In this document: one piece after another, positions 1-13,670 of the stretch | Layout: the number at the start of each line of letters is the position of its first letter | How positions within the stretch are numbered: the stretch's first letter is position 1 | Source of the DNA: an uncultured Endomicrobiia bacterium | Lineage (GTDB): Bacteria > Elusimicrobiota > Endomicrobiia > DTEH01 | NCBI GenBank assembly: GCA_937936785.1 | Contig: CALDDQ010000023.1 | Coordinates: 1 to 57,341, forward strand | Direction: 5' to 3' | Length of the DNA stretch: 57,341 bases | Notes under the pieces: generated by a model | The model's input: the letters and a program-made list of their open reading frames with translations, nothing else | Database searches by the model: none | Told to the model about the DNA's origin: nothing | Made by a program: the position numbers and the translations under genes

Positions 1-1660
1 AGAAAAACTTTACATAGGAGCAGCATGGTTGTCTGATACAGAACCGCAGATAGGTTGGCCTGTGATATTTGATGAGACTCCGCCATGTGCAATCTCAAAC
101 CTTACTGCGATAACAGGAGTATTTGATGGACAGGTAAAACTTTCCTGGACTTCACCTGGAGATGATGAAAATAATGCTACATTAAACAATGCTGTTTATA
201 GGATAAAATATTCTACAACATCGTTTACATTTTTTTCAAGTACAGAAAGTTATTCAGTTCAATTTGCAACTACAGGTGTAAGTCCGAACACACAAGTAAG
301 TTATGTTATAGGCGGTTTGTATGCCGGGACAACATATTATTTTGGTATAATAACACGAGACGATGCAGGCAATTGGTCTTTGTGGAACAAAGATGGAAAC
401 ACAAACACGTTAAATTATGCTTCGGCACAAGATTTGTCTCCACCGGCAGTTTCAGTTTTAAACACCACAAGTGCAAACCGTCAATTGACAGTTACTTGGC
501 AACACCCATCTCCTGACCCGGGTGATATTGACAAATATTGGGTATATGGTGCTACATTTAATTTTGTTAATATATCTGATGAGAATGTTATACATTATTC
601 TACAGTTACTTATCCTATGAAACAAACTACAATTGATAATTTAGTCAATGGTAGAACATATTATTTTAAAATAAAAACTTTTGACAAAGGAGATCAAGGT
701 AACGGGTTGTTTAGTATAGTTTTAGAGAGTATATTAAGCGTAGTTGTTAGTGGAATACCAAAAATTTCTCCTGCTACAAATCTTAATGCGAAACATAATG
801 GTAATTCAGTGAGTTTATCGTGGACAAATTCGTCAGATTCAGGTGCGTCCAATTTTGCCGGGTATAACATTTACCGTTCTTCAGTGTCAGTTTTAGGACC
901 GTTTTATTTAATTGCAAAACCGGGTAAAGTTGTAAGTTATACGGACACAGATGGTATAATAGCAAGTCAGGTTTATTATTATATAGTAAAATCTTCTGAC
1001 ACCGACGGAAGCGAAAGTGATTCATCAAACATTGCTACAGCAATACCGGACATAATTGCGCCGGAATTTTTTTCTATAGGACAGTTAACCAGTCGTGATT
1101 TAGGCAAATCTGTAGCACAGTTAAATGTTAAAATTGTAGATGATAGGTTTGAAAAAGATGACCGGTTAGGTAAAATTATAAGTTTGTCAGGAAAGTTTAG
1201 AAAAATAGGTGATACACAAGAAAATAATATAAATTTTGTCCCTGAATTTGTTAGTGGGATAAGTGAATATAGTGGTTTTGCAGAATTAAACTTTTCGTTA
1301 ATTACGATTGGTATTGAAGGGGTTGAGTATTATTTAGAAGCTAAAGACGAAGTAAATGTTAGCAGTTGGCCGGTTGGTGGTGGGTGGCTAAAAGTTGAAC
1401 CGACAAAAATTTTGCCAGAACAAAAGTTTGTTTCACCAAAAAATCCAGAGTTAGTGTTTGGTTCAGAAGCGCAAGAAGTGATAATTAGAGATTATGCTGG
1501 CAACGAACTATGGCGTGGGGATAGTAGCGGTGGGACAAAACTAATAATTTGGCGTGGTGAAGATAAACAAAATAAAAAGATAGAGTCCGGTGGGTATGTT
1601 TACGAAATTAAAACAAAAGATGGTAAGAAGAGGTATGGTGTGGCGGTGATTGTAAAATAA
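1..1660 (+). CDS. Secreted fibronectin type III protein with FlgD-like C-terminal domain (5' partial)
   Basis: The reading frame is open to the left edge (first full codon at base 2), so this is the 3' part of a longer gene; the TTG at 29 is not a real start. Three fibronectin III-like beta domains follow each other at about nt 80-440, 440-765 and 770-1055, each with the YYF/YYY-type F-strand pattern. A further beta-rich domain of unknown type spans about 1060-1420. The last 75 residues form a FlgD-Ig-like or type IX CTD-like domain ending in a GGYVYEIKTKDGKKR...VIVK pattern. Such proteins are exported and sit on or outside the outer membrane. The PorV-like gene downstream makes CTD-dependent secretion plausible (inference). 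The signal peptide and N-terminal domains lie outside the window. Confidence 0.8.
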   Translation, partial: EKLYIGAAWLSDTEPQIGWPVIFDETPPCAISNLTAITGVFDGQVKLSWTSPGDDENNATLNNAVYRIKYSTTSFTFFSSTESYSVQFATTGVSPNTQVSYVIGGLYAGTTYYFGIITRDDAGNWSLWNKDGNTNTLNYASAQDLSPPAVSVLNTTSANRQLTVTWQHPSPDPGDIDKYWVYGATFNFVNISDENVIHYSTVTYPMKQTTIDNLVNGRTYYFKIKTFDKGDQGNGLFSIVLESILSVVVSGIPKISPATNLNAKHNGNSVSLSWTNSSDSGASNFAGYNIYRSSVSVLGPFYLIAKPGKVVSYTDTDGIIASQVYYYIVKSSDTDGSESDSSNIATAIPDIIAPEFFSIGQLTSRDLGKSVAQLNVKIVDDRFEKDDRLGKIISLSGKFRKIGDTQENNINFVPEFVSGISEYSGFAELNFSLITIGIEGVEYYLEAKDEVNVSSWPVGGGWLKVEPTKILPEQKFVSPKNPELVFGSEAQEVIIRDYAGNELWRGDSSGGTKLIIWRGEDKQNKKIESGGYVYEIKTKDGKKRYGVAVIVK

Positions 1661-2092: not shown

Positions 2093-3049
2093 ATGAAAAA
2101 AATATTTATAAAAATTTATTTTGGTATTTTACTTTTTACCCTTTGCTCTTTCCATTTTCCGATAAATTGTGCTTTCCAAGATTACGGTTGGTCGGTAAGA
2201 GCGGAAGGTATGGGTGGAATATTTACTGCAGTTAGTAACGATTCGTCAGGGATAATTTATAATCCGTCAGGGATAGGATATGTTACACAGAAATCAGTAG
2301 AGCTGATGTATACAAAACCGTATTTAGGTTTAGAAGGGGTAGATTTTGGGTTAATGTATGTAAGTGGTGTGGTACCGTTAGAGAAAGTTTCGTTAGGGAT
2401 AAATTATAACAATTACAACATAAACAATCTTTATAACGAATCAATTGTAATTTTATGTGGTGCAACAGGATTACAAAAGTTTAATCTTGATTTAGCGGAT
2501 ATAATGGTTGGGTTAAATATAAAATATTTGACTAAAAAGTATACTTTTGATTCCGAGTTTAAAAGTTTAGAACCTAATCTTGCTGAAAGTAAAAGTGTGG
2601 TGTCAATAGATTTTGGGAGTATGTATAAACCAACAGAAAAATTGTCTTTAGGTATAATGGTTAGAGATATAAGTTCACCCAATGTTGCTGTTATTGAAGG
2701 AAGTCAAGACATAGTTCCTATGATGGCACGGGTTGGAACTTTTTATAATTTTGGTGATTGGAAAGTGTTAGAAGATATAGGTATAGGATTTGATGTGGCA
2801 TATAGGATGCAAGATTGGGGTACAATTGAAGAGAAAGTTAGTTATGCAGTTGGTATGGAAACATTTTTGGCATTTCACACTTATGCTGTTCGGTTTGGGA
2901 TAAATAAGACAAGTATAAATTTTGGGTTTGGATTTTTTAGTAGATTGTCTGAGAGTTTAGGATTACAAATAAATTATGCAGTAGGAATTTCCAGGGTGTA
3001 TAGTGACAATTTAGGTAGTCATAAGGTGTCGTTAGAGTTTAGGTTTTAA
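2093..3049 (+). CDS. PorV/UPF0164-family outer membrane beta-barrel protein
   Basis: The protein has 318 residues. A signal peptide covers about residues 1-27 and ends before FQDYGW. Next comes the family signature RAEGMGGIFTAVSNDSSG followed by IIYNPSGIG, seen in PorV/PorQ and UPF0164 proteins related to FadL barrels. The rest alternates short hydrophobic strands and turns and ends in a terminal aromatic (SLEFRF), typical of a barrel. In Bacteroidota, PorV is the shuttle of type IX secretion for CTD-tagged cargo. Here the gene lies between two genes whose products end in FlgD/CTD-like domains, so a comparable role is possible but inferred. It starts directly after the stop of the broken four-helix gene, so the two may once have been cotranscribed. 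Confidence 0.78.
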   Translation: MKKIFIKIYFGILLFTLCSFHFPINCAFQDYGWSVRAEGMGGIFTAVSNDSSGIIYNPSGIGYVTQKSVELMYTKPYLGLEGVDFGLMYVSGVVPLEKVSLGINYNNYNINNLYNESIVILCGATGLQKFNLDLADIMVGLNIKYLTKKYTFDSEFKSLEPNLAESKSVVSIDFGSMYKPTEKLSLGIMVRDISSPNVAVIEGSQDIVPMMARVGTFYNFGDWKVLEDIGIGFDVAYRMQDWGTIEEKVSYAVGMETFLAFHTYAVRFGINKTSINFGFGFFSRLSESLGLQINYAVGISRVYSDNLGSHKVSLEFRF

Positions 3050-3234: not shown

Positions 3235-4173
3235 ATGAAAAAAAATGTTTTATTGTGCAAAATAATTTTTTTATTTTTATTTTTAGTGATTCAAAAACAG
3301 ACGGTATATTGCGCAAAAAAATTTGTAATAAAAAATCCAGGGTTTGAAAATGTTATAAAATTTAATTATTGGGACAAAATAGGTTCAGATTCAAGTATAT
3401 CGAGAAGTTCTAAAATTAAAAGGTCAGGTGTTTATTCATGTTTTTTTGATGATCCTACCGAAAATTATGAAAGAAGAGGAATAATAACTTCTGAAATTTC
3501 AGAAGCAGTTGGTGGTGAAATGTATGAAGTTGGAGCATGGTTTTATTTGGCATATAAAAGTGGGCTTGTTACAGATTCACAAATTAGATTAAGAATTATT
3601 TGGTATGATAGTAACAATGTAATAATTTCTACCAGTACATCTTCAGATTTAACAGTTACGGAATTTAATACTTGGGAATTGTTAACATTTACATCTAGTG
3701 CACCGATAAATGCTGTTGGTGCTAAAATTAGTATTTCAGTTAAAGAAACTGACGATAATAACAATGATATTTATGTAGATGATGTGTTGGCAGAAGAAAT
3801 ACCTTTACAATCTGAAACAACAAAAACTGTTGAAGTATTAAAGCCAAATCCATTCATACCACATTCAGGGGAAGAAACACGTATTGCTTATAACATACCT
3901 GTATCTGCTACAGAAGCAGTTTTGTTTAATAAAAGTATAAAAATTTTTAACATGTCAGGAAAAGAAATAATAACTCTTATGGATAATAGTACAAATTTTT
4001 TCACTGGTGTTAAAATGGACGATAATGTGGGAACAATTAGTTGGACTGGGACAGACAAGTATGGTTCAATAGTTCCAACAGGAGTGTATATAGTATATTT
4101 TGATGCATACAATCCTGTTACTGGGAAACGTTTTAGTGGTAAAGATATAGTTGTGGTAGGGAGAAAGTTTTAA
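3235..4173 (+). CDS. Exported protein with carbohydrate-binding-like domain and FlgD-like C-terminal domain
   Basis: The protein has 312 residues and a signal peptide at about 1-27. Residues ~30-190 form a beta-sandwich typical of CBM4/9-like or galactose-binding modules: a NPGFEN start, a central YEVGAWFYLAY strand, and an IYVDDVLAEE end, where the Asp-Asp-Val is typical of this fold. Residues ~200-312 form a FlgD-Ig-like domain with LKPNPFIPHSGEETRIAY, WTGTDKYGSIVPTGVYIV and a final DIVVVGRKF. This tail resembles that of the protein encoded at 1-1660. A cell-surface or secreted glycan-binding role is likely; the ligand is unknown. It has its own likely promoter at 3192-3220 and lies 48 nt before the next barrel gene. 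Confidence 0.65.
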   Translation: MKKNVLLCKIIFLFLFLVIQKQTVYCAKKFVIKNPGFENVIKFNYWDKIGSDSSISRSSKIKRSGVYSCFFDDPTENYERRGIITSEISEAVGGEMYEVGAWFYLAYKSGLVTDSQIRLRIIWYDSNNVIISTSTSSDLTVTEFNTWELLTFTSSAPINAVGAKISISVKETDDNNNDIYVDDVLAEEIPLQSETTKTVEVLKPNPFIPHSGEETRIAYNIPVSATEAVLFNKSIKIFNMSGKEIITLMDNSTNFFTGVKMDDNVGTISWTGTDKYGSIVPTGVYIVYFDAYNPVTGKRFSGKDIVVVGRKF

Positions 4174-4221: not shown

Positions 4222-5814
4222 ATGAATAAAAAATTGATAAAAAAGGTATGGTTAAATTACTTTTTTATTTTTTTATTTTTTTATTTTTTTACTTTTCCGG
4301 TTCAATCTGCTTTTGAGCAGAGACAATTGTTTGCTCGTTCATCAGCGTTAGGTGGTGCATACAGTGCGTCTTATGGTGAAAGTGAGTCTATATACTACAA
4401 TCCTGCTGGGTTAATAAATCTGCCAAAGTATGATGTTGCTTTTTCATATACTAATCCTTATGGTATGAACATTTTGTCTGATACGACATTAAGTTTTGCT
4501 ACTGAAATAAAATCGTTTGGCAGGGTAGGATTTTTGTGGAACAGTTTTGGGTTTGATTTATACAATGAAAACAGTATTTATTTTGCATATTCACAAAATT
4601 TATCGTTAAACTTTTCAGTTGGTGCAAACATTAAATCTCAATCTTTAACTATAAAAGATTATGGTAGCAAAAGTGTTTTAGGGATAGATTTAGGTTTTAT
4701 GGGAATTATTTCTCCTTCAGTAATTACTGGTGTAGTTATAAAAAATGTCAATTCACCTGAAATTGTTTTAGAAGAAAAGTTGTCCCGTGAGACAGTTACA
4801 GGAGTTAGGCTTGAATTTATAAAAAATTCGCCAAGTTATATTGACATGATAAAACCGCAGTTGGAAGATGTATATTTTAAATTAGGGCAGGAAATATTTT
4901 TAAATCCAGTTTTAACACTTCGTACAGGTGTGGAAACAGGTTCTAAAGATAAACCTGCTAAGTACAGTTTTGGTTTTGGAATTTTTTATAAAGATTTTTT
5001 GTTTGATTACTCAAATGTAACACATCCGTATTTAGGTGTTCAGCATTTATTTTCATTAGGTATAAGGATAGGACAAAAAGAAAGTTTTGGAGATATAATT
5101 TTTGAAGATAAAAAACCGCGTCGAGGTGCTAAAAGTACAACAACTACAAAAACAAAAGATTTGTCAAAGTTAAGAATAAACTTAAACACAGCCACTGTAG
5201 AAGAACTTACCGAACTTCCCGGTATAGGACCAACTTCAGCACAACGAATAATTGAAACGAGACAGTTATTAGGTGGGTTTAGGTCTGTAGATGATTTAGA
5301 AGAAGTTCCACGGTTAGGGAAGGTTACTTTAGAACGAATAAAAAATTATGTTTATGTTGATGATCAGATGTCTTCTATAGAACAACCAAAACGTGTGTTA
5401 AAAGAACCAAGAAAAATTGTAGTAGAAAAAGTTTTTCGTGAGGAAGATTTTATAGAAAAACCAATTATTACTGAACCTGTGCAAGAGGTAGAAAAAGAAA
5501 AAGTTAAAGAACAAGTTTTGGACAGACCAGTCTTGGAAAAAGGTGTTACACTTGAAGTTGAACAGGTTAAAACCGAAGTTGTTATTTCTACACCGAAAAA
5601 AGAGTTGAGTGTAAGTGAAAAAAAATATAATTTAAACAAAATTACAGAAGAAGAGTTGAAATTGTTAGGATTTTCTGTTATGGATGCAAAAAATGTTATT
5701 CGGTATAGAACAAAATTTGGAAATTTTAAGTCAGTAGATGATTTAAACAAAGTGCCAAATATTAATAAAAGGTTTGTAGAAAAAATAAAAGATAGTATTT
5801 ATATAGAAGATTAA
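4222..5814 (+). CDS. PorV-like outer membrane barrel fused to two ComEA-type helix-hairpin-helix domains
   Basis: The protein has 530 residues. Residues 1-28 are a strongly hydrophobic signal peptide. Residues ~30-290 repeat the PorV/UPF0164 pattern (SSALGGAYSASYGESES then IYYNPAGL). At about 316-379 there is a clear ComEA/HhH1 unit: INLNTATVEELTELPGIGPT, RIIETRQLLGGF and SVDDLEEVPRLG. A Pro/Glu/Lys/Val-rich linker (about 385-465) leads to a second, more divergent HhH unit at 468-528 (YNLNKITEEELKLLGF, FKSVDDLNKVPNI). ComEA-type HhH domains bind double-stranded DNA without sequence preference. A barrel carrying two of them suggests DNA binding at the outer membrane, periplasmic side if the topology follows the signal peptide. 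The next gene begins on the base after the stop, which means tight coupling. Confidence 0.85.
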   Translation: MNKKLIKKVWLNYFFIFLFFYFFTFPVQSAFEQRQLFARSSALGGAYSASYGESESIYYNPAGLINLPKYDVAFSYTNPYGMNILSDTTLSFATEIKSFGRVGFLWNSFGFDLYNENSIYFAYSQNLSLNFSVGANIKSQSLTIKDYGSKSVLGIDLGFMGIISPSVITGVVIKNVNSPEIVLEEKLSRETVTGVRLEFIKNSPSYIDMIKPQLEDVYFKLGQEIFLNPVLTLRTGVETGSKDKPAKYSFGFGIFYKDFLFDYSNVTHPYLGVQHLFSLGIRIGQKESFGDIIFEDKKPRRGAKSTTTTKTKDLSKLRINLNTATVEELTELPGIGPTSAQRIIETRQLLGGFRSVDDLEEVPRLGKVTLERIKNYVYVDDQMSSIEQPKRVLKEPRKIVVEKVFREEDFIEKPIITEPVQEVEKEKVKEQVLDRPVLEKGVTLEVEQVKTEVVISTPKKELSVSEKKYNLNKITEEELKLLGFSVMDAKNVIRYRTKFGNFKSVDDLNKVPNINKRFVEKIKDSIYIED

Positions 5815-8142
5815 ATGGGAAATGTTAAAAAAAGTTTTTTAATTACTTTATTTTTTGTAGGGACAATTTTAGCTCAAGAAAATGAAATAAATTTTTCTAC
5901 TATACCAGTTTCTAAAAAGTTAGATATTAATGAAGATCTTGCACAACAACAAACACAGGAAGAAGATTTTGACCAATTAGAAGAGTTATATAAACAACTT
6001 GATGAAGTTGAGATAGATGTCGGTGAACAAGATTTGGGACAGGAAAGTGTTTCTACAGCAGTAACTTTAGATGAAGATATCAGTCTTGTTCAAGATGAGG
6101 ATGAACTTTTAGAAAGATTATCTCGTGATCCGGTAGATTTAAACACAGTATCATTTGTTCAACTACGAACTTTACCCGGGATAAATTCGCAACTTGCCAG
6201 AGAAATTATTCGTCATCGTAGGACTAAACCGTTTAAAACCAAAAGTGCATTACTAACAGTTAAAGGTGTTACACCTGAAGTTTATAAACGAGTTTCGCCA
6301 TATGTAACAGTAAAATCTGTTAAACAATTAAAAACAGATAAAAGAATTAAAGGACAGGTGCGTTTTAGAACTAAAATTTCAAAACCTGATTCTGCTGAAA
6401 CTTACTTGAAATATTATTCAACTTCACCTTTGCGTAATCCTATATATTTATATAACAGAACAGAATTTTCATACTCGTCAAAGTTAGATTTAGGATATTT
6501 ATTTTTATACCGACCGGAAGAACCACCGCCTACTTTTGATATGATACAAAAGTTTTATTTAAAAAAGTGGTGGTTAAAGTTGTATTCATTACCATATATT
6601 GACAAGGTTGTAGTTGGAAATTATAGAGCAGGATTTGGTTATGGATTAGTTTTTTATGAAAATACTACTGAAACCTTACGTCCGGTAAAACCTAAACCGA
6701 GAGGTTTAAGAGAAGATAAATCTTCCACTTATAATATAAATTTATATGGATTAGGAATGGAAACAGTTTTAGGTCCTATTGAAACAGCAGTAGTTTATTC
6801 TAAAAAAAGATATCAATTGTCAAGCAGTAAAGTTACTTCTGATAGTTACATAGATGAAGATTTGTTAAAAATAAAAAATTTAGATATTACTTTTAGTACT
6901 GTTAGTAGACAGGGTGAAAATTATGAAGATATATTGTTACCAGAGTTAGATAGGGCAAGCTTAACAGAGGAGTTGATAGGGTTTAATATTGTAACAAACA
7001 TTTTTAATATGCGTGTTGGTATGACATTTTACGAATCTATGTTTGACAAGGTGATTGATCCTGACAAAACAGACAATTCAGGTTATGGTGCTTTAGTGAG
7101 TAAATATGCAGAGTATTGGTCATCGGTATATCGTGGTAATCATTTAACAGTTGGTAGTATATATTTTGATTTACCGATGTCAATGTTAAACATTTATGGC
7201 GAATATGCAAGATCAAATGCTGGTGGTGGAAAGGATAACTTAGGTAATAGTATACTACCACAAGATGGGAGCGGGTTAAACTTGGGTTTTATTATACCAT
7301 ATAAAAAAGTAAGTTATTATTTTCTTTATACAAATTTAGATTCAACTTTTTATTCTCCCCATGGAGTTGGATTTAGAATTTATTCAGATGCAGATAATGG
7401 TCAGGTTGGTGTTAGGCATGGGTTAGAATATCATATTGACAATTTAAATTTAAAATTTAATTATGCTACGGGAAATATTTTTAGAAATTTATGGAGCGGA
7501 TATTCTACCAGCGAATCACCAAGGTATCCATCAAAGTATAACGAGATTATGTTTGAATCAAAGTATAAAATAAAAAAAACAGAGTTATATTTTAGATTAT
7601 TAGACGATATTCGTGAAAAATATATTAAATTAAGCAATTATAACGATTTATTACCACAAGAAAATAAACAAGTTGATCAAATAAATTTAAGACGAAGATA
7701 TCAAGTTACATACGATTTTACTAAAAATTTAAAAATGAGAGTTAGGTATGAAAACAGGTGGCAAATTTATGATTTGCCGGACACAAACAATAGTGCATAC
7801 TATGGCGAGTTAATGTTTTTGTCAATGAGATATAAATTTTCAAATTTAGATTTAAATACAGGATACAAAATTTATGATGCAGACAAAAATATTTATTTAA
7901 GCATTTTAAATCCTCAGTGGTACAATGTGTATATTTCAGAAACAGAAAACAATTCTGCAGGGGATAAATTTTATTTTACAATAACATCCAAGTTTGCAAA
8001 GAATGTTGTTTTATGGTTTAGGTATAGATATAAACAGTATTTTACAAAAAGTGGTGAAGATGTTATTTTATCAACAGAATTGTCTAAAATATTGAATTCT
8101 GTGGATCACGATTTTCGGTTTCAGGTAGATATTAACTTTTGA
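5815..8142 (+). CDS. Helix-hairpin-helix outer-membrane protein with large beta-barrel domain
   Basis: The protein has 775 residues. A short signal peptide ends near residue 20 (ILA/QEN). An acidic segment (~30-100) is followed by a ComEA-like HhH unit at ~106-168: DPVDLNTVSFVQLRTLPGIN, REIIRHRRTKPF and KSALLTVKGVTPEVY. The remaining ~600 residues are rich in alternating aromatic strands (LDLGYLFLYRPEE, VVVGNYRAGFGYGLVFYENT) and end in DHDFRFQVDINF, a C-terminal aromatic residue typical of barrels. Similar HhH-plus-barrel proteins are known as uncharacterised families in Bacteroidota and related phyla. The gene abuts the upstream barrel-HhH gene with no gap, so the two products probably act together. 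A DNA-capture or DNA-transit role is inferred. Confidence 0.75.
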   Translation: MGNVKKSFLITLFFVGTILAQENEINFSTIPVSKKLDINEDLAQQQTQEEDFDQLEELYKQLDEVEIDVGEQDLGQESVSTAVTLDEDISLVQDEDELLERLSRDPVDLNTVSFVQLRTLPGINSQLAREIIRHRRTKPFKTKSALLTVKGVTPEVYKRVSPYVTVKSVKQLKTDKRIKGQVRFRTKISKPDSAETYLKYYSTSPLRNPIYLYNRTEFSYSSKLDLGYLFLYRPEEPPPTFDMIQKFYLKKWWLKLYSLPYIDKVVVGNYRAGFGYGLVFYENTTETLRPVKPKPRGLREDKSSTYNINLYGLGMETVLGPIETAVVYSKKRYQLSSSKVTSDSYIDEDLLKIKNLDITFSTVSRQGENYEDILLPELDRASLTEELIGFNIVTNIFNMRVGMTFYESMFDKVIDPDKTDNSGYGALVSKYAEYWSSVYRGNHLTVGSIYFDLPMSMLNIYGEYARSNAGGGKDNLGNSILPQDGSGLNLGFIIPYKKVSYYFLYTNLDSTFYSPHGVGFRIYSDADNGQVGVRHGLEYHIDNLNLKFNYATGNIFRNLWSGYSTSESPRYPSKYNEIMFESKYKIKKTELYFRLLDDIREKYIKLSNYNDLLPQENKQVDQINLRRRYQVTYDFTKNLKMRVRYENRWQIYDLPDTNNSAYYGELMFLSMRYKFSNLDLNTGYKIYDADKNIYLSILNPQWYNVYISETENNSAGDKFYFTITSKFAKNVVLWFRYRYKQYFTKSGEDVILSTELSKILNSVDHDFRFQVDINF

Positions 8143-8233
8143 TGTTAGGCATTAATTTTAAGAAAGAGATAGTTAATGTACTAGAGGATTAAAAAAATTA
8201 GATAAAATATTGTGCAATGGGTAGGATAAAAAG

Positions 8234-8249
8234 TGTGATTATTATCACA
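8234..8249. promoter_or_regulatory. Perfect CRP-type palindrome TGTGA-N6-TCACA
   Basis: The half sites TGTGA (8234-8238) and TCACA (8245-8249) are an exact inverted repeat separated by 6 bp. This is the consensus spacing of CRP/FNR-superfamily cAMP-receptor sites. It lies in the 260-bp gap before the pilin gene, about 120 bp upstream of the predicted pilin transcription start. That is farther than classic activator positions, so the site may serve another promoter or act from a distance. No CRP-like regulator gene is in the window. Confidence 0.5.
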
Positions 8250-8328
8250 TAAATGTGTTAACATTGACATTTTTTCGTCTACGATTTTGTTGTTTAAAAA
8301 CAGAAAAATGAATATTATTTTTACAATC

Positions 8329-8357
8329 TTGACAATTTATTAGAAATGTAATATAAT
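8329..8357 (+). promoter_or_regulatory. Consensus sigma-70 promoter for the pilin gene
   Basis: TTGACA (8329-8334), a 17-bp spacer and TATAAT (8352-8357) match the bacterial housekeeping consensus at all twelve positions. The predicted start is near 8364, giving a leader of about 65 nt with a strong Shine-Dalgarno GGGGGGTG at 8415-8422. This fits a highly expressed structural gene. Confidence 0.8.
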
Positions 8358-8429
8358 AATAATAGAAGAATGAGGGTCTGTTATTTATTTTAATCCCAAA
8401 AAATGTTCTTCAGGGGGGTGAAAAGAAAA

Positions 8430-8903
8430 ATGAAAAAAAGTAAAGGTTTTACATTGATAGAATTGATGGTTGTAGTAGTTATTCTTGGTATATTAGCAGT
8501 GGTAGTAGCACCAAGAATACCTGATATGGTGAGAAAAGCAAACGAAGGTGCAACAAAAGGTTCGTTATCTACATTGAGATCAACATTGAACATTTATTAT
8601 AGTGATGTTGAGGGTTATTACCCAATAACAGCTTCAGGCGAGGTAGTTACAGGTACTTTTACAGGAGCTTTGGTTCCAAAATATATCAAAAAGATTCCAA
8701 CTGCAAAAGTTCCAACAGCACATCCAACAGTAACATTGTCCGGGGTTTATGGATATGCTTCAATTGGTTCTGCACCGACTATTCAGAATGAAGGGATAAA
8801 TGCGTGGGGTTATTGTGGAGTTGCAACAGCAAATGATTATGGTAGTATAATTGTTAACAGTGGATACAATGATACTGCAGGAACACCTTGGTATTCATAC
8901 TAA
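8430..8903 (+). CDS. Type IV pilin / type II pseudopilin-like major subunit
   Basis: The ATG at 8430 is preferred over the in-frame ATG at 8403 because the G-rich ribosome-binding site lies just before it; the product then has 157 residues. It begins with the class III leader MKKSKG, cleaved before FTLIELMVVVVILGILAVVV, the N-methylated hydrophobic helix, with Glu at +5. After the helix, APRIPDMVRKANEGATKGSL and YYSDVEGYYP are typical of GspG/PilA-like pilins from many uncultured Gram-negative phyla. The C-terminal part is a small beta domain with Thr/Gly/Tyr-rich turns. The gene is monocistronic between a consensus promoter and a perfect terminator. The prepilin peptidase gene follows. It is probably the major pilin, used for adhesion, twitching or DNA uptake. 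Confidence 0.93.
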   Translation: MKKSKGFTLIELMVVVVILGILAVVVAPRIPDMVRKANEGATKGSLSTLRSTLNIYYSDVEGYYPITASGEVVTGTFTGALVPKYIKKIPTAKVPTAHPTVTLSGVYGYASIGSAPTIQNEGINAWGYCGVATANDYGSIIVNSGYNDTAGTPWYSY

Positions 8904-8932
8904 AGTGTGATTATCTGAATGTGACATTTATT

Positions 8933-8976
8933 AAAGAGGTGATTACAAATGTTTGTAATCACCTCTTTCTTTTTTT
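8933..8976 (+). terminator. Rho-independent terminator after the pilin gene
   Basis: A 17-bp perfect inverted repeat (8933-8949 with 8952-8968, stem centred on GAGGTGATTACAAA) is closed by a minimal loop and followed by CTTTTTTTT. It begins 29 bp after the pilin stop. It separates the pilin transcript from the prepilin peptidase gene. Confidence 0.93.
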
Positions 8977-9006
8977 ATATAAAATAAAATTAGTAGCAAA
9001 TATTGG

Positions 9007-9034
9007 TTTAGTATTATCACGAATCTTATATAAT
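9007..9034 (+). promoter_or_regulatory. Possible promoter for the prepilin peptidase gene
   Basis: TTTAGT (9007-9012), a 16-bp spacer and a perfect TATAAT (9029-9034) lie between the pilin terminator and the ATG at 9051. The -35 match is weak, but a separate promoter is expected because the terminator isolates this gene. Confidence 0.35.
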
Positions 9035-9050
9035 AAATTTTTAATGTGTT

Positions 9051-9806
9051 ATGTTAATATTTTTTTTTGTTTTAGGCACAGTTTTTGGTAGTTTTGGTAA
9101 TGTACTAATTTATAGGTTACCTTTAAATCAATCTATTTTATTTCCATTTTCTTTTTGTCCTAACTGTAAGGAACATATAAAGTGGTATTATAATATTCCA
9201 GTTATAAGTTTTTTTATTTTGTCAGGCAAATGTAAAAGTTGTGGTCAAAAGATTAGTTTTATATATCCTTTTGTAGAATTTGTTTGTGGTCTAATGGCAG
9301 TTTTGTTGTTTTTTAAGTTTGAAAATTATGTTTATACAATGATTTTTTTTAATTTAAGTTTTGTCCTTTTTGTTATAGCAGTAATTGATTATAAAACGAT
9401 GGAAGTTCCTGATGTGCTTTCTAATTATTTGATAATTTCAGGTTGTTTAGTGTCAATTATAAATCCAGTTTTTGGAGATAATTTGGTAAACAAAGTTATG
9501 AATTCTTTATTAGGTGGTATGGTGGGATATGGTGTGATTTTTTTAATAGAACATATCGGAAATAAAATATTTAAAAAACCAGCAATAGGTTATGCTGATG
9601 TAAAAATTTTTGCTGCAATTGGGTTATATCTTGGGTATTTAGCAATATTTAAAATTTTATTTTTTGCTTCAGTGATAGCAACTATATATGTGTTATTTTT
9701 GTCTTTTAAAAGTAAAGAAAATATTTTTGGCAAATATATACCTTTTGCACCATTTATTTTTTTAGGAACATTTGGATATATTATTTTTTATTTAAATGTT
9801 AAATGA
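9051..9806 (+). CDS. pilD: Prepilin peptidase / N-methyltransferase, GspO/PilD family
   Basis: The product is a 251-residue inner-membrane enzyme that cleaves the leader of type IV prepilins and methylates the new N-terminal Phe. Visible family marks are the N-terminal GSFGNVLIYRLP segment, the zinc-type cysteine pairs CPNCKEHIKWYYNIP and CKSCGQKISFIYP, and the two aspartates of the aspartyl-protease active site (VIDYKTMEVPD near residue 118 and GYADVK near residue 183). About seven further hydrophobic segments follow. The usual SFLNVVIYRLP here reads SFGNVLIYRLP, a mild variant. The downstream gene starts within its stop codon (ATGA overlap), so the pair is cotranscribed and coupled. The pilin at 8430 is the obvious local substrate. 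Confidence 0.93.
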   Translation: MLIFFFVLGTVFGSFGNVLIYRLPLNQSILFPFSFCPNCKEHIKWYYNIPVISFFILSGKCKSCGQKISFIYPFVEFVCGLMAVLLFFKFENYVYTMIFFNLSFVLFVIAVIDYKTMEVPDVLSNYLIISGCLVSIINPVFGDNLVNKVMNSLLGGMVGYGVIFLIEHIGNKIFKKPAIGYADVKIFAAIGLYLGYLAIFKILFFASVIATIYVLFLSFKSKENIFGKYIPFAPFIFLGTFGYIIFYLNVK

Positions 9807-12761: not shown

Positions 12762-13670
12762 ATGGATAATGGTTCAATGGATTTGATAAAATTTAATTTT
12801 ACATCTATATTAGGTTGGTCTGTAAGTAGGTATGATAAATTTTCTATGTGCAAACGAGCGTATTATTATGATTATTATAGCAAAAATGAACCAATTGAGT
12901 TAAGAAACAAAATTGAAAAATTAAAGAAACTTACTTCCATATCTTTAGAACAAGGAAATATTGTTCATGATGTTATAAAGATTTTGTTAGAACGTCTTTT
13001 AAAGACAGAAAGACCTGTTGATGAAGAAAAATTTTTTAATTTCACAAGACGTAAAACTAATGAGTATATTAATAAAAAGGATTTTATAGAAACATATTAT
13101 AATAAGATAGAAAAAATTGATGAAGAAAAAATTTATACTGAAGTAGAAAAATATTTAAAAAATTTTTTATCTTCAGAAAGATACCAATGGATACTATCAA
13201 AAGCAGTAAAAAACAAAAACAAATGGATAATAGAACCGCCAGGGTTTGGTGAGACAAGGATTGGTGATTTAAAAGCGTATTGTAAGGTAGATTTTTTGTT
13301 TCCTGTAGAAGATGAAATTTATATTTTAGATTGGAAAACAGGTCGGCGTGATGAAAAAAAACATAGAAAACAGTTATTGGGATATTCTCTGTGGGTAAAT
13401 TTTCATTTTAAAAAAGAACCAGAAAAAATTTTCCCAATAGTAGCTTATATGCAACCGGTATATAATGAGTTTAAGATAGAATTGAACGAGTTTGATTTGC
13501 AAGAGTTTGTTACAATAGTAGAAAAAGAAACTCAAGAATTATATTCAATGTGTAAAAACATAGAACAAAATATTCCCAAGGATAAAGAAGAGTTTGAAAA
13601 AACAACTAATAATAAAATTTGTTTGTTTTGTAATTACCGAGAACTTTGCTATGATAAAAATATTAGTTAA
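12762..13670 (+). CDS. PD-(D/E)XK nuclease superfamily protein with Cas4/AddB-type cysteines
   Basis: The protein has 302 residues, preceded by an AAGGTGA ribosome-binding site. The RecB-like nuclease signature is present: GNIVHDVI (His of motif I), KVDFLF (Asp), ILDWKTGRRDE (D-x-K motif) and KQLLGYSLW (Gln/Tyr motif). One Cys near the N-terminus (SMCKRAYYYDY) and three near the C-terminus (ICLFCNYRELC) match the four-cysteine 4Fe-4S arrangement of Cas4, AddB and PDDEXK_1 proteins. No cas gene, CRISPR array, helicase or addA gene is nearby. DNA repair or recombination end-processing is more likely than CRISPR adaptation. The substrate is unknown. Confidence 0.82.
   Translation: MDNGSMDLIKFNFTSILGWSVSRYDKFSMCKRAYYYDYYSKNEPIELRNKIEKLKKLTSISLEQGNIVHDVIKILLERLLKTERPVDEEKFFNFTRRKTNEYINKKDFIETYYNKIEKIDEEKIYTEVEKYLKNFLSSERYQWILSKAVKNKNKWIIEPPGFGETRIGDLKAYCKVDFLFPVEDEIYILDWKTGRRDEKKHRKQLLGYSLWVNFHFKKEPEKIFPIVAYMQPVYNEFKIELNEFDLQEFVTIVEKETQELYSMCKNIEQNIPKDKEEFEKTTNNKICLFCNYRELCYDKNIS

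Follow-up and report, generated by a model that had tools for sequence, protein, structure and literature searches.

The window analysed here, a contig (C23) of 57,341 nucleotides, belongs to a 1.56 Mb genome (G000 in our survey) that is 96% complete; among named organisms, its closest relatives are Endomicrobia bacteria (phylum Elusimicrobiota). Two of its genes, here termed A and B, follow one another with no gap between the coordinates of their open reading frames (Table 1). Conserved neighbours precede them, and a type IV pilin gene and a prepilin peptidase gene lie on the 3' side of B. A few genes further 3', at 12,762-13,667, the window also encodes a 302 aa PDDEXK_1 / Cas4-like nuclease.

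Table 1. Coordinates of the features discussed, in the window and at related loci
Feature	Sequence	Position	Strand	Remarks
fn3 / FlgD_ig surface protein	window	29-1660	+	conserved neighbour (Pfam; relatives' loci)
PorV/PorP-family barrel without HhH	window	2093-3049	+	conserved neighbour (NCBIfam; relatives' loci)
Exported protein with T9SS/FlgD_ig-like C-terminal domain (CTD)	window	3235-4173	+	conserved; precedes A in most lineages
Gene A	window	4222-5814	+	530 aa; signal peptide, 14-strand barrel resembling PorV, two HhH domains of ComEA type
A, barrel region	window	4312-5073	+	residues 31-284; AlphaFold2 strands 72-283; PorV best PDB match
A, HhH unit 1	window	5173-5358	+	residues 318-379; canonical LPGIGP; HHH_3 76.9 bits; AlphaFold2 helices
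A, HhH unit 2	window	5611-5811	+	residues 464-530; first hairpin degenerate; HHH_3 48.7 bits; AlphaFold2; pI 9.2
Gene B	window	5815-8142	+	775 aa; signal peptide, then an acidic helix, a basic HhH unit and a large barrel of the outer-membrane type
B, HhH unit	window	6127-6312	+	residues 105-166; HHH_3 58.2 bits; net charge +6.8, pI 10.7
B, barrel	window	6346-8139	+	residues 178-775; about 24 strands, C-terminal F; AlphaFold2; TonB-dependent-receptor-like in PDB
Sigma-70 promoter of pilin gene	window	8329-8357	+	perfect, TTGACA-17-TATAAT
Type IV pilin	window	8403-8903	+	PF07963; start probably 8430
Intrinsic terminator behind pilin	window	8933-8968	+	strong, 16-pair
Prepilin peptidase (A24)	window	9051-9806	+	PF06750, PF01478
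CTD protein	STE_202, L034	116-769
A	STE_202, L034	775-2253
B	STE_202, L034	2268-4259
ComEC2	STE_202, L034	4428-7328
ComEC2 with staphylococcal nuclease insert	L069	6232-9606
ComEC2 with staphylococcal nuclease insert	L070	2381-5767
ComEC2 with staphylococcal nuclease insert	L071	7773-11171
Apparent signal peptide + SpoVG protein	L083	9088-9726
Apparent signal peptide + SpoVG protein	L081	12896-13561
Apparent signal peptide + SpoVG protein	L052	3225-3908
Apparent signal peptide + SpoVG protein	L026	16246-16938

Using Pfam, HHH_3 domains are found in A at residues 318-377 and 464-530 (protein-level E 4e-34) and in B at residues 105-165 (E 1e-14). The NCBIfam comEA and ComEA-repeat models agree with these calls, and both proteins carry the HHH_3 / comE-type HhH region of a ComEA-type receptor, with scores below the cut-off of 152 bits against the whole-protein comEA model TIGR01259 (109.6 bits for A, 28.8 for B). 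The motif of the first unit of A is canonical, yet the unit is slightly acidic in the window's genome; the second unit is basic, and its first hairpin has no GxG, reading LGFS instead of LPGIG. The N-terminal part of A matches the NCBIfam model PorV_fam with E 3e-15, its 56.7 bits being below the cut-off of 90, and the PorV equivalog model gives 19.0 bits against a cut-off of 250. The AlphaFold2 model of A (mean pLDDT 63.7) has 14 long strands followed by two four-helix HhH folds at residues 326-376 and 476-525, and its best matches among solved structures are the T9SS PorV chains 8gl6_F and 6h3i_F, so that a PorV-like 14-strand barrel fold is predicted with moderate model confidence.

The model of B (mean pLDDT 59.4) opens with a long acidic region at the N-terminus, followed by an HhH fold at residues 114-163 and then by about 24 long strands at residues 178-774. 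Among solved structures it most resembles TonB-dependent receptors such as BtuB, which have 22-stranded barrels as against the number predicted for B at low pLDDT. Pfam detects no plug family in B, and the N-terminal region of the model is made up of the helix and the HhH, the latter strongly basic by charge calculation. The models of A and B were built from 6 and 7 sequences and are of moderate to low confidence, at which the topology is clear and an open pore is beyond their reach. Outer-membrane barrels usually have both termini in the periplasm, and all three HhH units, that of B ahead of the first modelled strand and those of A after the last, should therefore face that compartment. The original prediction, a PorV-like barrel with two HhH units in A and one such unit with a large barrel in B, agrees with the HHH_3 matches, the sub-threshold PorV_fam match and the two models, as do its open reading frames, their order and spacing and the abutting of A and B with the coordinates found here; its count of three ComEA-like units stands, with the correction that one hairpin of the last unit of A is degenerate.

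The order CTD-bearing exported protein, A, B recurs in the same family (G001-G004) and in G007 and G010, which belong to another family of the class; wherever the contigs extend far enough, PorV-like and fn3 genes lie on the 5' side in these genomes. Since this order is conserved across several families, the pairing of A and B is not a matter of chance. An alignment of the barrel part of B alone, used as query, recovered relatives. The B proteins of G043, G045, bacterium STE_202 and the Bacteroidota genus Phocaeicola are remote but, taken as a group, homologous to that of the window (hhalign 99.9%, E 5e-32, residues 99-775). Fusion of HhH to a barrel, which the original prediction had called rare for the PorV-like type, is uncommon but not unique; a B-like HhH-barrel occurs in Phocaeicola as well. 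One Phocaeicola genome (G295) has both a 312 aa frame with three HhH units (L086/L090, C8:42553-43215) and a 682 aa HhH-barrel (L033:8404-10452). In several lineages, proteins that appear to carry a signal peptide and have a C-terminal SpoVG domain lie beside the pair, and one is encoded on contig C10 of the window's genome; SpoVG is a DNA- and RNA-binding family that is normally cytoplasmic. At two loci (L076:16861-18420 and L052:6477-8144) a sequence resembling the S23-type four-helix bundle stands in frame ahead of PorV-like barrels; it may be a gene of its own, part of a fusion or a mobile insert.

The HhH content varies among other Elusimicrobiota, with additional units in G128 and G007, units in A only in G246 and G004, and none in G042 and G060; the latter two together with G075, G176 and G282 have a pair, or a B, that is HhH-less. 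The HhH-less versions retain the same gene order, and since they keep the scaffold, the barrels may have, or may once have had, another and older role. Together with the PorV-like sequence and fold of A, and with the CTD/FlgD_ig proteins and further PorV-like genes that adjoin A in nearly every lineage, this would fit a unit for surface attachment or type IX-like secretion in which A serves as a PorV-type shuttle for the adjoining CTD proteins, B is its partner barrel and the HhH units bind a ligand other than DNA or are relics. We regard this as unlikely, because it leaves the co-occurrence and linkage with ComEC2 described below unexplained and does not account for the retention of canonical ComEA-type motifs or for the basic HhH of B, and because PorV paralogues without HhH, which are abundant in the surveyed genomes, could do the sorting.

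The window's genome encodes DprA, a ComEC (ComEC1) and a type IV pilus set, with one secretin preceded by pilM-N-O-P-like genes, and with two PilB-like ATPases, PilT and PilC encoded side by side. A genome-wide search found no HHH_3 match over the cut-off besides A and B, and the genome therefore has no free ComEA. HHH_3 matches in frames of 720-760 aa in other genomes of the class were excluded as ComEA candidates, their size and score fitting the transcription accessory protein Tex, which we take them to be. In ComEC1 (L026:8290-10482, C10) the MBL motif reads HAHFPH, with proline for the usual aspartate; judging from this motif, the domain may be inactive.

A second, divergent ComEC, here termed ComEC2, is 950-1130 aa long across Elusimicrobiota. 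That of the window's genome (C8:3946-7302, 1118 aa) lies on a different contig from A and B; its domains are OB/DUF4131, Competence and a degenerate MBL. Usually, a nuclease domain of the ComEC type is found as a stand-alone protein 3' of ComEC2; this MBL protein matches the C-terminal domain of ComEC and has an intact HxHxDH motif. On contig C8 (L028:3946-10182) a PDDEXK_1 nuclease comes after ComEC2 and the stand-alone MBL protein after that, an arrangement kept in G001-G003. The order in G128 is ComEC2-MBL-PDDEXK, and G007, G045 and G051 have ComEC2, a UvrD helicase (by Pfam in G007 and G045) and the MBL protein. In G001-G003 the OB region of ComEC2 carries a staphylococcal nuclease domain (PF00565) as an insert; in the window's own ComEC2 the insert is degenerate, the DGDT, Glu and Arg motifs being lost in the alignment. 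That several nucleases travel with ComEC2 (MBL, PDDEXK and, in G001-G003, the staphylococcal nuclease insert) would suit an uptake of DNA for food, nucleotides or repair and not for transformation, in which A and B import duplex that the nearby nucleases degrade. This seems rather improbable to us, DprA being present and ComEC-type channels studied so far passing one strand intact, though the two uses can coexist.

Among 295 Elusimicrobiota genomes, ComEC2 was detected in 11 and an A protein extending into the HhH part in 15; nine genomes, which span six family labels, have both (Fisher p = 6e-12 over the 295 genomes, kinship ignored). At the genus level eight genera share the two, three have A only and one has ComEC2 only (p = 2e-8, kinship likewise ignored). 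The genomes having ComEC2 without such an A (G051 and G053) are 86-89% complete, with ComEC2 contigs that end close by, and those having A with HhH and no detected ComEC2 (G004, G010, G049, G055, G239 and G246) are in some cases fragmented. ComEC2 is absent from all surveyed other genomes of the class that have neither A nor B. A perfect match between the HhH pair and ComEC2, drawn from 36 genomes, was dropped in view of the exceptions in the survey of 295, which leave a strong association and not a rule. The genes are also linked. In bacterium STE_202 the CTD protein, A, B and ComEC2 are encoded consecutively on one strand; in G045 and G043, from two other families, A, B, several PorV-like genes, a CTD protein and ComEC2 are co-directional within about 12 kb, with 7-12 kb on one strand between the A-B pair and ComEC2; and in G007 a single contig carries the pair and, about 19 kb away, ComEC2.

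Next to B, the pilin gene has a good ribosome-binding site ahead of position 8,430, which makes this the more likely start than 8,403, and its own perfect promoter and terminator mark it as a separate transcription unit. Pilin and peptidase genes lie 3' of B only in G000, G001 and G003, three genomes of one family, and this adjacency is absent in G002, G004, G007, STE_202, G043 and G045. They were accordingly rejected as a general part of the A-B unit. The same distribution and the separate transcription weigh against A and B being type IV pilus accessories, for example on the secretin side or in pilus docking, that bind DNA for adhesion to extracellular DNA or biofilm; we consider this very improbable, even with a pilus encoded in the genome and the pilin and peptidase genes following B in those three genomes. 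The original prediction had placed the pair beside pilin and peptidase genes, had proposed looking for the pair near pilin genes and comEC in relatives, and had read the whole as DNA uptake in which the barrels themselves supply the ComEA function. The position of the two genes holds, apart from the shifted pilin start, and comEC linkage was found, but the pilin neighbourhood, confined to one family and transcribed separately, is weak evidence; the uptake role is well supported by the co-occurrence and linkage with ComEC2.

Since the pair is the genome's only source of ComEA and is linked to ComEC in independent lineages, the best explanation is that A and B are an outer-membrane DNA-uptake site with the ComEA function anchored to barrels and feeding ComEC2, which we hold to be probable. 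It is supported by A and B being the sole HHH_3 proteins of a genome that has type IV pilus genes, ComEC1 and DprA, by the nuclease and helicase genes 3' of ComEC2, by the high pI of the HhH unit of B and by the fold matches of A to PorV and of B to TonB-dependent receptors. It is weakened by the pairs or B proteins that lack HhH, by the six genomes with A-HhH and no detected ComEC2, by the slightly acidic first unit and degenerate second unit of A, by the position of the window's ComEC2 on another contig and the loss of catalytic residues from its nuclease insert, and by the confidence level of the models.

At such an uptake site, DNA would be drawn to the cell by the pilus or otherwise and would cross the outer membrane at or beside the A-B pair, possibly via the wide barrel of B. 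Soluble ComEA binds the incoming duplex and stops it from sliding back; here the HhH domains of A and B would bind the emerging duplex and block back-sliding in the same way, before the DNA is handed to ComEC2. The stand-alone ComEC-type metallo-nuclease would help to make single strands, as might the staphylococcal nuclease insert or the UvrD helicase in relatives. Observed are the domains, the predicted folds, the conserved pairing, the tie to ComEC2 and the lack of another ComEA; where A and B are located, that they bind DNA, that B is the channel, what the pilus contributes and uptake as such we infer together with this route. A more far-reaching version, which we put forward tentatively, is a second, dedicated import pathway, possibly independent of the pilus and related to the outer-membrane step of Bacteroidota, in which barrels with an HhH ratchet replace the secretin and free ComEA and feed a ComEC2 whose nuclease is split off or replaced by the staphylococcal type.

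The literature searched yielded no account of the A-B pair or of the ComEC2 operon and no paper on HhH-PorV fusions, and A and B with ComEC2 look like a previously undescribed form of bacterial DNA-uptake machine. If this is true, a barrel with its own DNA-binding ratchet, tied to ComEC, would be a concrete candidate for the outer-membrane DNA import step in bacteria without the classic route, and would make that step testable in transformable Bacteroidota strains.

Among known systems, the Gram-negative ComEA of Vibrio cholerae (PMC3879209) shares with A and B the exported tandem HHH_3 / comE-type HhH and genomes with type IV pili, ComEC and DprA, but is a small periplasmic or membrane-anchored protein, whereas the HhH units of A and B are fused to outer-membrane barrels and there is no free ComEA. 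The type IX proteins PorV and PorQ (PDB 8gl6, 6h3i) are closest in structure to the barrel of A, with sub-threshold sequence similarity and with CTD proteins adjoining; unlike them, A ends in HhH domains and has B as its partner. ComEC2 has the OB (DUF4131), Competence and degenerate MBL domains of ComEC / Rec2 (PMC12455585, PMC6299819), but it is a second, larger copy, with the active MBL as a protein of its own and, in G001-G003, with the staphylococcal nuclease insert. In Porphyromonas gingivalis, PGN_0421 ("ComEA") is likewise a ComEA-domain protein in competence: PMC11532111 gives its domain as residues 94-165, reports that its deletion abolishes competence and states the outer-membrane import step of this species to be unclear. 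It is not claimed here as a proven orthologue of B; since a three-HhH protein and an HhH-barrel coexist in a Phocaeicola genome, the position of the HhH given there is insufficient by itself for such a match. Transformation of Riemerella anatipestifer needs the three-HhH protein RA0C_RS02645 and a barrel-type protein of the outer membrane (PMC8459023); there the HhH protein and the barrel candidate are separate, where A and B have the two fused.
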